Below are positions 55,165 to 59,052 of a stretch of 64,000 nucleotides of DNA, piece by piece. The DNA is taken from positions 248,001-312,000 of the forward strand of contig JAITDN010000003.1 in assembly GCA_031282525.1 (NCBI GenBank), in the 5' to 3' direction. This DNA is from Candidatus Endomicrobiellum basalitermitum (GTDB taxonomy: Bacteria > Elusimicrobiota > Endomicrobiia > Endomicrobiales > Endomicrobiaceae). Position 1 is the first letter of the stretch; each line of letters opens with the position of its first letter. Both the position numbers and the translations under genes were made by a program. Under the pieces are notes generated by a model. It worked only from the letters and a program-made list of their open reading frames with translations, was not told the origin of the DNA and did no database searches.

Positions 55165-55749
55165 TTATCTATTAAAATCATCAACCAATTTTTCCATATA
55201 CGCTCTTGTATGCAAGCATGCTGGACACTTATCTAAAGCTTCTTTGCTTTCATAAATGTAACCACAATTGCGACATCTCCATTTTACAACTATATCTTTT
55301 TTGAAAACTCTATCGCTTTCAATATCATTTAAAAATTTTAAATACCTGGCCTCGTGATATTTTTCAGCAACAGCAATTTTTCTAAAACATTCCGCTATCT
55401 CATGGAAACCTTCACTGTCGGCAATCTTTGCAGCTTGCGGATACACCTTTGAGTACTCTTCATTCTCACCTGCAGCGGCAAATCTCAAATTTTCAACCGT
55501 GTCTCTTATACTCCCAGCAGGAAAAGTTGCAGAAATTTCAAGAGAACCACCTTCTAAAAATCCAAAAAATCTCTCAGCATGTTCTTTTTCATTATCTGCA
55601 CTATCTGTGAAAATTGCAGAAATTTGCTCAAAGCCTTCTTTCTTTGCTCTTGAAGCAAAATAAGTATATCTCATTCTAGCTTGAGATTCACCTGCAAACG
55701 ACTTTAACAAATTTTTCTCTGTGTCTGTTCCTTTAATTGACCTAACCAT
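55165..55749 (-). CDS. rbr: Rubrerythrin
   Basis: Diiron peroxidase that reduces hydrogen peroxide in anaerobes, fed by rubredoxin. The ferritin-like domain has both ExxH motifs (NEKEHAERF, AEKYHEARY) and ESQARMRY. The C-terminal rubredoxin-like domain has CRNCGYIY and CPACLHTR. Length 194 is typical. Part of an oxygen-defence cluster with superoxide reductase and rubredoxin. A G8 run lies 11 nt before the ATG. Confidence 0.97.
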   Translation of the reverse strand: MVRSIKGTDTEKNLLKSFAGESQARMRYTYFASRAKKEGFEQISAIFTDSADNEKEHAERFFGFLEGGSLEISATFPAGSIRDTVENLRFAAAGENEEYSKVYPQAAKIADSEGFHEIAECFRKIAVAEKYHEARYLKFLNDIESDRVFKKDIVVKWRCRNCGYIYESKEALDKCPACLHTRAYMEKLVDDFNR

Positions 55750-55936: not shown

Positions 55937-56383
55937 TTATCTCATTATATCAACTTCATTAAACCATTTCCCATGCAAGTTACAATTTTCTATAACTTGA
56001 ACTTTACCTTTCACACCATCTTTTAAATGTATAACAGCAACAGGATTTATATTAAATGTCAACATAACATTTTCTGCAAACTTATTATTAACATAAAAGG
56101 TTATTTCAGTTATGTAGTGTTCAGACAACATAGGATGAACAATCTCTCCAATTTTTACATGTACATCAAGGCATCCTGACATAGGAACTAAACCACATTC
56201 TTTAACTATTGTAAAAACAGGTGTATGTTTCTTTTCAGTTTCATTACTAATCTTTCCAATATCCAATATTTTATAAGCATCCTCTCTCATTTTAAACACA
56301 TTCTTCCCTTTGCAAACAGGGCACTTATCCTCACTTCCATCTAAAGAAATATAACCGCATATTCTACACACCAACCCTTTCAC
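55937..56383 (-). CDS. Superoxide reductase (desulfoferrodoxin type)
   Basis: Reduces superoxide to peroxide without making oxygen. The C-terminal iron centre ligands are all present: EKKHTPVF, HPMLSEHYI and CNLHGKW (four His and one Cys). The N-terminal 40 residues carry a rubredoxin-like zinc or iron knuckle (CRICGY...CPVCKG) in place of the short desulforedoxin domain. It starts with GTG after a strong AAGGAGG site. 148 residues. Its product peroxide is the substrate of the neighbouring rubrerythrin. Confidence 0.93.
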   Translation of the reverse strand: MKGLVCRICGYISLDGSEDKCPVCKGKNVFKMREDAYKILDIGKISNETEKKHTPVFTIVKECGLVPMSGCLDVHVKIGEIVHPMLSEHYITEITFYVNNKFAENVMLTFNINPVAVIHLKDGVKGKVQVIENCNLHGKWFNEVDIMR

Positions 56384-56613: not shown

Positions 56614-56857
56614 ATACTTAACCTCCTCTCTACTACTCTACTCATTAAGAATCAACGTAAAAGATATCCTTCTCACAGATAATCTTCGATCCTTTAAAAA
56701 AATGTAAAATAAAACACGTAATTATTACCGTGAAAATTTCTTCATTTCAGTCGACAGATAGTATTGCATAAACTTCTTTCTTTAACAAATTTACTAGCAG
56801 AAAATAAAATCTACTTTTAAATTAAAAAATATAATTAAATACATTCTTTACTACACC

Positions 56858-57164: not shown

Positions 57165-57539
57165 TTATAATTTTTTACTCTTATAGTTTTCAACAGCTTT
57201 ATGTAACGCATCCGCCCCTAAGTTAGAACAATGCATTTTATTCGGTGGAAGACCGCCTAAAGCTTTCGCAACATCCGCATTTGTAAGAGCCATTACTTCT
57301 TCAATTGTTTTACCAAAAGCCATCTCTGAAACTATAGAAGAAACAGCTATTGCTGCACCACATCCAAACGTCTTAAATTTTACATCTTCAATTTTATTAT
57401 TATTAACTTTTATATAAAAAGTCATCATATCGCCACATACGGGATTTCCTACTTCACCAATACCATCAGCACCCTTTATTTCTCCAACATTTCGTGGATT
57501 TGTAAAATGTTTCATAACCTTTTCTGAATAAAACGCCAT
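57165..57539 (-). CDS. iscU: Fe-S cluster scaffold IscU
   Basis: Scaffold on which 2Fe-2S clusters are built. The three cluster cysteines and the Asp are intact: GNPVCGDMM, TFGCGAA and KMHCSNL; LPPNK resembles the LPPVK site bound by HscA-type chaperones. Length is 124. A GGAGG site favours the ATG at 57539 (MAFYSEKVMKHF). It follows the IscS-like gene by 80 nt. The partner lacks its PLP lysine, so the sulfur source for this IscU is unclear. Confidence 0.95.
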   Translation of the reverse strand: MAFYSEKVMKHFTNPRNVGEIKGADGIGEVGNPVCGDMMTFYIKVNNNKIEDVKFKTFGCGAAIAVSSIVSEMAFGKTIEEVMALTNADVAKALGGLPPNKMHCSNLGADALHKAVENYKSKKL

Positions 57540-57618
57540 CAACATCCTCCAGTATAAAAACTTAACAATGAACCCAATAACTTAGAATATGCTTAAAAAT
57601 AATATAATAAAAATTTTC

Positions 57619-58872
57619 TTACAAATCACAATGACAATGTTCGTCAAAATTTGCCCCAAGTCCAGCAACTTTTTTTTTGCCGGTCTGCACAAAATATGAA
57701 TACAATGGTGACATATCCCTTAACCGTTTAACTATACTTGGAAATTCCTCTAGAACATATTCCATCTCTTTTTCTGTATTAAACTTTGATAAAGTGAACA
57801 CAATTGAACCCTGTCCAATCACAACATCCACATTTATAGCTCTTAGAACATGAGAAAGCTTGAGATCTTTACTAGCACACGCAGAACCGCTACCCACCAT
57901 AACGCCCTTAGCATCTAAAAGCAAAAATAGCGCCTCTCCCTCAATAAATTCTATTGAAAAATTCACATTGCCAGGTAAACGGTTTTCTTGAGCTTGGGGT
58001 CCATTTAAATAAATGCATTCAACTTTATTGAGAAGCCCACTAATGAGTCTATCACGCAACTTACAAATAAATCTACTTTTACTCACAAGTTCTTCTTTAG
58101 CTATTTCACAAGCTTTTCCAAAACCTACAATAGCTGGAATATTTTCAGTTCCTGAACGTTTAGAATTTTCCTGAACCCCACCATCTATTTGGGGAATAAT
58201 TTTTAAGCCTCTATTAATATACAAAGCAGCAGCACCTCTAGGTCCATGTATAGCTGAAGCTGAAAAAGTCAAAGTATCTACTCCCAAATCTTTAACATCA
58301 ACTGGAATTGTTCCGCAAGCACTGACTGCATCTGTATGAAAAACAACAAAATCACTAATATTTTGACTCTGTTTGACAATAGACACCAACTTCTTTATAT
58401 TTTGTATTGTACCGATTTCAGGATTAGCATATTGCACAGATACCAAAATAGTATCTTTTCGCAGCATTTCTTTTAATTTCAATTCGTTTATGTTACCCTT
58501 ATTATCAACAGGAACAGAGTCCACCTCAAAACCTTCTTTTTCAAGTCTTCTTACAGAGTTTAGAATTGAAAAATGTTCAATTGAAGAAACGATAATATGC
58601 CTACCATTGGCTTTTAAAGCCTCAGCAACTCCTTTTATTGCCAAATTATTTGACTCTGAGCCACACGAGGTAAAAATAATTTCTCCTGCATCTGCGTTAA
58701 TTAAACTCGCAACTTTGCACCTTGCAGATTCAAGAGCATCTTTAGAAATAGTTCCCAATGAATAAATACTTTGAGGGTTTCCGTAATATTCAATAAAAAA
58801 CGGTTTCATGCTATCAAATACTCTTTCGTCGAGTCTGGTATTTGACTGATTGTCCAGATATATTTGTTTCAT
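57619..58872 (-). CDS. IscS/NifS-like protein lacking the PLP lysine
   Basis: Cysteine desulfurase fold, 417 residues, full length and unbroken. The family block SGHKIxGPKG reads SASAIHGPRG, so the lysine that binds PLP is Ala (about 207) and the His before it is Ser. The Asn before EIG is Pro (ANPEIG, about 151) and the Gln of DAxQ is Ser (DAVSA, about 184). Kept are the His that stacks on PLP (SIEH, 100), the Asp (181), the sulfur-carrying Cys loop GSACAS (332) and an HCHC-containing tail. A normal desulfurase reaction looks impossible. A role as a structural or cysteine-donating partner of IscU is inferred. It overlaps nothing and starts 11 nt after rubredoxin. Confidence 0.88.
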   Translation of the reverse strand: MKQIYLDNQSNTRLDERVFDSMKPFFIEYYGNPQSIYSLGTISKDALESARCKVASLINADAGEIIFTSCGSESNNLAIKGVAEALKANGRHIIVSSIEHFSILNSVRRLEKEGFEVDSVPVDNKGNINELKLKEMLRKDTILVSVQYANPEIGTIQNIKKLVSIVKQSQNISDFVVFHTDAVSACGTIPVDVKDLGVDTLTFSASAIHGPRGAAALYINRGLKIIPQIDGGVQENSKRSGTENIPAIVGFGKACEIAKEELVSKSRFICKLRDRLISGLLNKVECIYLNGPQAQENRLPGNVNFSIEFIEGEALFLLLDAKGVMVGSGSACASKDLKLSHVLRAINVDVVIGQGSIVFTLSKFNTEKEMEYVLEEFPSIVKRLRDMSPLYSYFVQTGKKKVAGLGANFDEHCHCDL

Positions 58873-58883
58873 AAATTCATCCA

Positions 58884-59042
58884 TCACTCTTTTTTAAAAT
58901 CTTCTTTAGGAACACCGCACAGCGGACATACCCAATCATCAGGAAGCTGTTCAAAGGAAGTTTCGGGAGCAATTCCGTTATCAGGAATACCTAAATTCAC
59001 ATCATAAATATAACCACACACTGAACATTTCCATTTTTCCAT
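58884..59042 (-). CDS. Rubredoxin
   Basis: 52 residues, too short for the ORF track: [14 protein letters not shown], the acidic PDNGIAPET loop, then [13 protein letters not shown]. The two CxxCG pairs bind one iron. It carries electrons, probably to rubrerythrin and superoxide reductase. It is first in a rubredoxin, IscS-like, IscU operon. The ribosome site is a G9 run 1 nt before the ATG. Confidence 0.95.
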
Positions 59043-59043
59043 A

Positions 59044-59052
59044 CCCCCCCCC
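59044..59052 (-). promoter_or_regulatory. G9 tract at the rubredoxin ribosome site
   Basis: Nine Gs on the minus strand (GTGTGAGGGGGGGGGT) directly before the ATG. The GAGG at its 5' edge can act as a Shine-Dalgarno, so a change in run length would change its distance to the start codon. Confidence 0.7.

Follow-up and report, generated by a model that had tools for sequence, protein, structure and literature searches.

An IscS-like gene paired with iscU

The window, that is, the whole 64,000-nucleotide stretch of Candidatus Endomicrobiellum basalitermitum DNA analyzed here, belongs to a 719-kb genome in four contigs that is 84% complete. Endomicrobium/Endomicrobiellum-type bacteria are residents of termite-gut flagellates. 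The locus encodes an IscS/NifS-like protein without the lysine that anchors pyridoxal phosphate (PLP) in cysteine desulfurases, and an IscU scaffold gene starts 73 bp downstream on the same strand (Table 1). The open reading frame of the Lys-less protein has no internal stop; its product begins MKQIYLDNQ when read from the ATG and ends in EHCHCDL. Judged by its matches to the TIGR03402 NifS model (E 8e-137) and to Pfam Aminotran_5 (E 7e-65), it is a genuine member of the IscS/NifS-like family and not a chance match. The TIGR03402 score (455.9 bits) is below the curated cut-off of 530.75 bits, and the canonical paralog of the same genome also falls just under it (528.5 bits). The initial annotation described the neighboring IscU as intact, and indeed all of its cluster-ligand motifs (Cys/Asp/Cys/His-Cys) are retained, in NPVCGD, FGCGA, and HCS.

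Table 1. Features of the Lys-less iscS-iscU cluster, in window positions
Feature	Position	Strand	Remarks
Rubrerythrin	55165..55749	-	PF02915; synteny
Desulfoferrodoxin/superoxide reductase	55937..56383	-	PF01880; synteny
Flavodiiron-like gene remnant (N-terminus)	56715..56818	-	Two tblastn pieces, E 0.027 each, syntenic
Small Cys-rich zinc-ribbon-like protein, 72 aa	56858..57076	-	No family match; synteny
IscU scaffold (NifU_clost TIGR03419)	57165..57545	-	TIGR03419 above cut-off, PF01592
Lys-less IscS/NifS-like protein	57619..58872	-	417 aa from ATG; 422 aa from GTG at 58887
Rubredoxin	58884..59048	-	NF045768/PF00301; synteny

The order rubredoxin, Lys-less IscS, IscU, zinc-ribbon-like protein, flavodiiron protein, desulfoferrodoxin, and rubrerythrin is shared by most of the genus members compared, and portions of it are also seen in free-living relatives and some Bacillota. 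The rubredoxin gene, whose stop overlaps the GTG extension of the Lys-less IscS frame, is a conserved upstream neighbor in the genus. The zinc-ribbon-like gene downstream of iscU is conserved in most of the genus relatives compared, and its product could be an unrecognized part of the module. Between the zinc-ribbon-like and desulfoferrodoxin genes sits the flavodiiron remnant; relatives L071-L077 have an intact copy of the gene in this position (L071 6758-7975), and a genome search found no other flavodiiron-like gene elsewhere in the window genome.

Because its neighbors encode rubredoxin, flavodiiron protein, desulfoferrodoxin, and rubrerythrin, the module may serve cluster building or repair tied to oxygen defense. 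The same neighbors, the flavodiiron gene being present in relatives, suggest control together with oxygen defense, as would suit a regulatory pseudoenzyme adjusting sulfur flux during oxygen stress, either by competing with the canonical IscS for IscU or through inactive heterodimers. We regard such a role as improbable; in most Elusimicrobiota with the gene, the sole typical IscU adjoins it and the canonical desulfurase gene is unlinked (see below), and one would not expect a pure inhibitor to be the chief partner of the single scaffold.

Residues lost and retained

Residues were compared in an alignment of 102 proteins, comprising 38 Lys-bearing rows, 58 Lys-less bacterial rows, and 6 archaeal Lys-less rows, with E. 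coli IscS numbering used throughout; the Lys-bearing and Lys-less groups are defined by the Lys206 column, and the Arg354 column is independent of this grouping. The roles of the residues discussed are established knowledge of IscS/SufS. In the window protein Lys206 is Ala, His205 is Ser, Asn155 is Pro, and Gln183 is Ser, giving SASAIHGPRG in place of SAHKxxGPKG, ANPEIG in place of ANNEIG, and HTDAVS in place of HTDAVQ. Cys328 (GSACAS), the stacking His104 (IEHFS), and Asp180 (HTD), which contacts the pyridine nitrogen, are retained. The alignment thus confirms the motif changes initially reported, together with the retained GSACAS and stacking His, and adds a further loss that had escaped the initial annotation: the substrate-carboxylate Arg354 of the IRFS block is Val.

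These losses are characteristic of an entire bacterial group. Lys206 is present in 38/38 canonical rows versus 0/58 of the Lys-less clade, where the position holds Gln (31 rows), Val (8), Leu (5), or other residues. Arg354 is found in all 38 Lys-bearing rows and in none of the 57 scorable Lys-less bacterial rows, which always have Leu, Val, Ile, or Thr; further loci beyond the alignment divide in the same way at the Lys and Arg positions. His205, Gln183, and Asn155 occur in 38, 36, and 32 of the 38 Lys-bearing rows, respectively. In the Lys-less bacterial rows Gln183 is mostly replaced by Ala or Ser, and Asn155 mostly by Pro, Thr, or Ser, with Asn retained in ten. In two loci, L090 and L093, the PLP Lys is conservatively replaced by Arg (APHRFYGPKG).

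Other positions are strictly kept. All scorable Lys-less rows have the loop Cys (57/57 in bacteria, 6/6 in archaea), every row of the Lys-less clade has both His104 and Asp180 (58/58 each), the Arg of RxGTEN is retained throughout the alignment, and the phosphate-loop Thr, and often Ser203, are also still present in Lys-less proteins. The clade has furthermore acquired residues of its own, with Gln239 replacing the His of the GGxHE block and Ser107 (58/58 each), and Lys343 replacing Glu334 just after the Cys loop (53/57); their conservation speaks for a separate function. No other lysine occupies the PLP position. A compensating pocket lysine can be dismissed, as no new Lys occurs in the SxxK block, and Lys343 is rejected as a candidate by its position at the Glu334 site beyond the Cys loop.

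Read from the alignment, the cofactor anchor and the substrate anchor are both gone, and the sulfur-handling Cys and parts of the pocket are retained. An E. coli IscS K206A mutant keeps some PLP and forms intermediates slowly, with no desulfurase activity (PMC9978102). Since Lys206, Gln183, and Asn155 are lost together with Arg354, and since the K206A mutant is inactive, the window protein has very likely lost desulfurase activity. The initial annotation considered the PLP site erased, and this is right as regards the missing Lys, His, Asn, and Gln. It overstates the extent of the loss, as His104, Asp180, and the phosphate-loop Thr remain, and the change is old and phylum-wide rather than recent. 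"Erased" is also too strong for PLP binding as such because the E. coli mutant retains some cofactor; with His104, Asp180, the phosphate-loop Thr, and often Ser203 in place, the window protein may still bind PLP loosely. One could imagine that PLP-dependent sulfur chemistry itself persists, using noncovalently held PLP and another base such as His104; this would fit the invariance of His104 and Asp180 and the slow intermediates of K206A. We find it highly improbable, given that Arg354, Gln183, Asn155, and His205 are mostly lost together and that the E. coli mutant shows no desulfurase activity.

The C-terminal HCHC tail, initially suggested to add metal binding, fares less well. It is variable, being EHEHEH-like in free-living relatives, and is gone in several reduced relatives, so that it is not essential; we therefore do not uphold it as an essential metal site.

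Predicted structure and selection

The AlphaFold model shows the IscS fold at high confidence (mean pLDDT 86.9, pTM 0.86), with a floppy, low-confidence Cys loop at residues 331-336 and a disordered tail at 403-417. Its best fold matches in the PDB are human NFS1 complexes and Archaeoglobus fulgidus IscS, and its TM scores against the A. fulgidus IscS of 4eb5/4eb7 are 0.87-0.97.

Pairwise dN/dS was calculated by NG86/YN00, with most pairs beyond the two closest relatives having saturated dS. Against these two relatives the NG86 values are 0.114 and 0.102 (dS 0.54 and 0.77), compared with 0.131 for the canonical paralog and 0.049 for IscU. The Lys-less gene is thus under strong purifying selection (dN/dS ~0.1), and the initial view of an unbroken and selected reading frame holds. 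Decay within a shrinking symbiont genome might nonetheless be suspected, as the genome is reduced and the surrounding region is losing genes, the neighboring flavodiiron-like gene having been cut down to a short remnant while the Lys-less gene stays intact. A pseudogene is hardly credible: the intact frame and the dN/dS of about 0.1 refute it for the window lineage, the gene is conserved across the phylum, and the same residues are missing in free-living relatives.

Age and distribution of the Lys-less clade

Lys-less orthologs are present in 52 of 61 genomes (the window genome and 60 Elusimicrobiota relatives). The Lys is absent from every Elusimicrobiota ortholog read and is replaced by Gln in nearly all of the free-living relatives, whose genomes range from 1.2 to 3.4 Mb. 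A scan of public genomes recovered further Lys-less relatives in Chloroflexota (Dehalococcoidia), Bacillota, Aminicenantes, WOR-3, Zixibacteria, Aquificota, Thermodesulfobacteriota, Nitrospirota, Myxococcota, and others; the bacterial homologs come from about ten phyla and mostly from anaerobes. Because the Lys loss is common to the orthologs of a whole phylum and to a larger bacterial clade, these sequences place it as an old change, not one particular to the window symbiont.

The tree was built after masking the trait columns, and in it one branch (support 100/98, and 200/200 bootstrap trees) sets apart all 57 bacterial Lys-less rows that were included. Six archaeal rows resembling A. fulgidus IscS, with Asp for the Lys, form a separate branch among Lys-bearing proteins (100/99), and only 2% of bootstrap trees unite them with the bacterial clade. 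Two separate losses of the Lys, one in the bacterial clade and one in the archaeal group, are the simplest reading, with a single loss not rejected (AU p 0.34). Our searches of open-licence papers returned no description of the bacterial Lys-less clade, of its signature residues or IscU subfamily, or of its occurrence across the phylum Elusimicrobiota.

The IscU partner

A search of the window genome found one typical IscU, the one beside the Lys-less gene. Across the 61 Elusimicrobiota genomes there are 63 IscU genes, 47 of them within 1 kb of a Lys-less gene and 9 within 1 kb of a canonical gene, with one adjoining both; in most gene-bearing Elusimicrobiota the sole typical IscU adjoins the Lys-less gene and the canonical gene is unlinked. 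Outside the phylum, IscU adjoins most bacterial Lys-less genes (including 12 of the 13 read in Dehalococcoidia), the Aquificaceae loci being an exception. The pairing is long-lasting, and the partners seem distinctive: outside the phylum, the IscU encoded with a bacterial Lys-less protein shares 60-78% identity with the window IscU, versus about 46-66% for the partners of most canonical proteins, and the ligand motifs are intact in those partners read to full length. Genomes G018, G029, G007, and G038 (the last 99% complete) have IscU without the Lys-less gene, which is therefore not indispensable everywhere.

SUF can be rejected as an alternative scaffold, as a genome search found no SufB/D in the window genome; only 1 of the 60 Elusimicrobiota relatives has SufB/D. 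We note that the window genome also encodes a distant 251-aa NifU_N-like protein beside a 343-aa GGGtGRT-type protein (L160:135-1902; C1 near 5300), and that matches of similar length recur in several relatives.

A canonical NifS in the same genome and the source of sulfur

A genome search for another desulfurase found a canonical NifS/IscS at G000:C4:146970-148160 (L001:1411-2619), away from IscU and complete in its Lys, His205, Asn155, Gln183, and Arg354. We therefore reject the idea that the Lys-less gene encodes the genome's only desulfurase. A canonical copy is present in 46 of the 52 Elusimicrobiota genomes with the Lys-less gene, and the six without it are incomplete genomes.

The initial annotation proposed that the Lys-less protein acts with free sulfide from the habitat rather than as a sulfur donor. 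With a canonical NifS elsewhere in the genome, free environmental sulfide is an unproven source of sulfur, possible but not required, since the gene content of this genome and of most relatives, with their canonical NifS, does not force it. Only Lys-less copies were seen in G060, G062, G071, and G072. These genomes are weak proof of sulfide use and do not establish a desulfurase-free state, as all are metagenome-assembled and, in the similar case of G061, the start of a second desulfurase gene is cut by masked bases. Sulfide feeding is chemically plausible, given that in anaerobic E. coli without IscS, H2S can supply the sulfur for IscU-dependent assembly (PMC13015791).

The main rival to the role proposed below is a persulfide relay, in which the canonical NifS loads the Cys of the Lys-less protein, or forms a heterodimer with it, making the Lys-less protein a secondary sulfur donor to IscU. 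The co-occurrence of a canonical desulfurase in Elusimicrobiota is as this would predict, as is its presence, judged by identity, in most Dehalococcoidia with the Lys-less gene; the loop Cys is fully conserved, and two clusters hold both types, with Lys-less IscS, IscU, and canonical IscS together (L050:2986-6054 and L222). Co-occurrence is, however, expected in any genome with tRNA thiolation, and MnmA, a usual desulfurase client, is encoded in the window genome. The Lys-less and canonical genes are moreover usually unlinked, and the four genomes named above seem to be Lys-less only, although they are metagenome-assembled. We consider a relay unlikely but worth keeping in view.

A proposed role as an IscU-docking platform

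On the sequence evidence, we think it probable that the Lys-less protein is a desulfurase-dead platform for IscU docking, with its Cys ligating the nascent cluster or handling sulfur made elsewhere. The retained Cys, the dN/dS of 0.10-0.11, the IscU linkage, the distinct IscU partners, the absence of SUF, and the fold match all argue for this role; IscU-bearing genomes without the Lys-less gene and the retained His104, Asp180, and phosphate pocket count against it. Lys-less IscS and IscU would constitute a two-gene Fe-S assembly module, in which the former keeps the IscS fold and a mobile Cys loop, so that an IscS dimer and IscU docking are expected, with neither a PLP Schiff base nor the usual hold on the cysteine substrate. 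The ligand role is borrowed from A. fulgidus IscS, a protein on another branch of the tree; by analogy, the loop Cys (Cys337 in the 422-aa form) would enter the IscU site and transiently coordinate the [2Fe-2S] cluster as it grows. Another source, probably the canonical NifS, would supply the sulfur in the form of sulfide or persulfide.

In textbook ISC assembly, IscS is the sulfur donor. More tentatively, most Elusimicrobiota and scattered members of other phyla may pair their main scaffold IscU with a dedicated desulfurase-dead IscS, in an old and widespread mode of assembly where IscS has a structural part and donates a ligand, the sulfur being delivered as sulfide or by a separate enzyme. 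The Lys-less clade separates the donor role of IscS from its docking and ligand role; as natural separation-of-function proteins, its members could be used to ask what else IscS does apart from desulfuration and whether anaerobes build clusters from sulfide. Many anaerobe database entries named cysteine desulfurase are probably misnamed.

Comparison with known systems

IscS proteins lacking the Lys are a kind already known, as illustrated by A. fulgidus IscS2, Methanosarcina acetivorans IscS1, and the protein of PDB 9wfy. A. fulgidus IscS has Asp in place of the Lys, to which its reported lack of desulfurase activity is attributed, and it reportedly provides a Cys that ligates the IscU-bound cluster (PMC7585200). 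The parallel drawn to it in the initial annotation is a proper functional precedent, but one from a different part of the tree. A. fulgidus IscS2 (PDB 4eb5, 4eb7, and 4hvk; D199K mutant 4r5f) likewise lacks the PLP Lys, the Gln, and the substrate Arg and comes from an anaerobe, and the window protein matches it in having an IscS fold without the PLP Lys, a retained Cys, and a gene pair with IscU. It differs in that its Lys-to-Asp change is accompanied by His to Asn, in its tree position among Lys-bearing proteins, a joint origin not being rejected (AU p 0.34), and in lacking the Lys of the bacterial clade at the Glu334 position. M. acetivorans IscS1 (MA0808) also lacks the catalytic Lys, and its gene adjoins that of an IscU, with further IscS copies encoded elsewhere in the genome (PMC7585200); it is archaeal, lies outside the tree sampled, and was obtained as inclusion bodies.

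The Aquificaceae Lys-less IscS-like protein of the PDB 9wfy and 9wep series belongs to the bacterial Lys-less clade; like the window protein it keeps the Cys while the Lys, Asn, Gln, and Arg are all replaced. It differs in having Leu for Lys, a retained His, and no IscU beside its gene in the loci read. Entries 9wep, 9wer, 9wew, 9wf8, 9wfb, 9wfe, and 9wfy are annotated only as cysteine desulfurase, and a literature search found no paper on the series. From their sequences the chains look like the natural Aquificaceae protein and stepwise variants of it at the positions that are diagnostic here, the 9wep chain having all four of Lys, Asn, Gln, and Arg, apparently restored.

The canonical IscS/NifS of the same genome belongs to the same fold family and is 42% identical to the Lys-less protein; it differs in having all five residues and in not being encoded beside IscU. 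Against the definition of cysteine desulfurase (EC 2.8.1.7), the Lys-less protein has the loop Cys, lacks the PLP Lys and Arg354, and scores below the TIGR03402 cut-off. Lastly, the minimal IscS-IscU system (MIS) resembles the module in comprising two components, IscS and IscU, without carriers or chaperones alongside. A cysteine desulfurase is part of the MIS as described (PMC12192291), whereas the IscU-paired IscS of the window lacks the catalytic residues and, by its sequence, should not be one.
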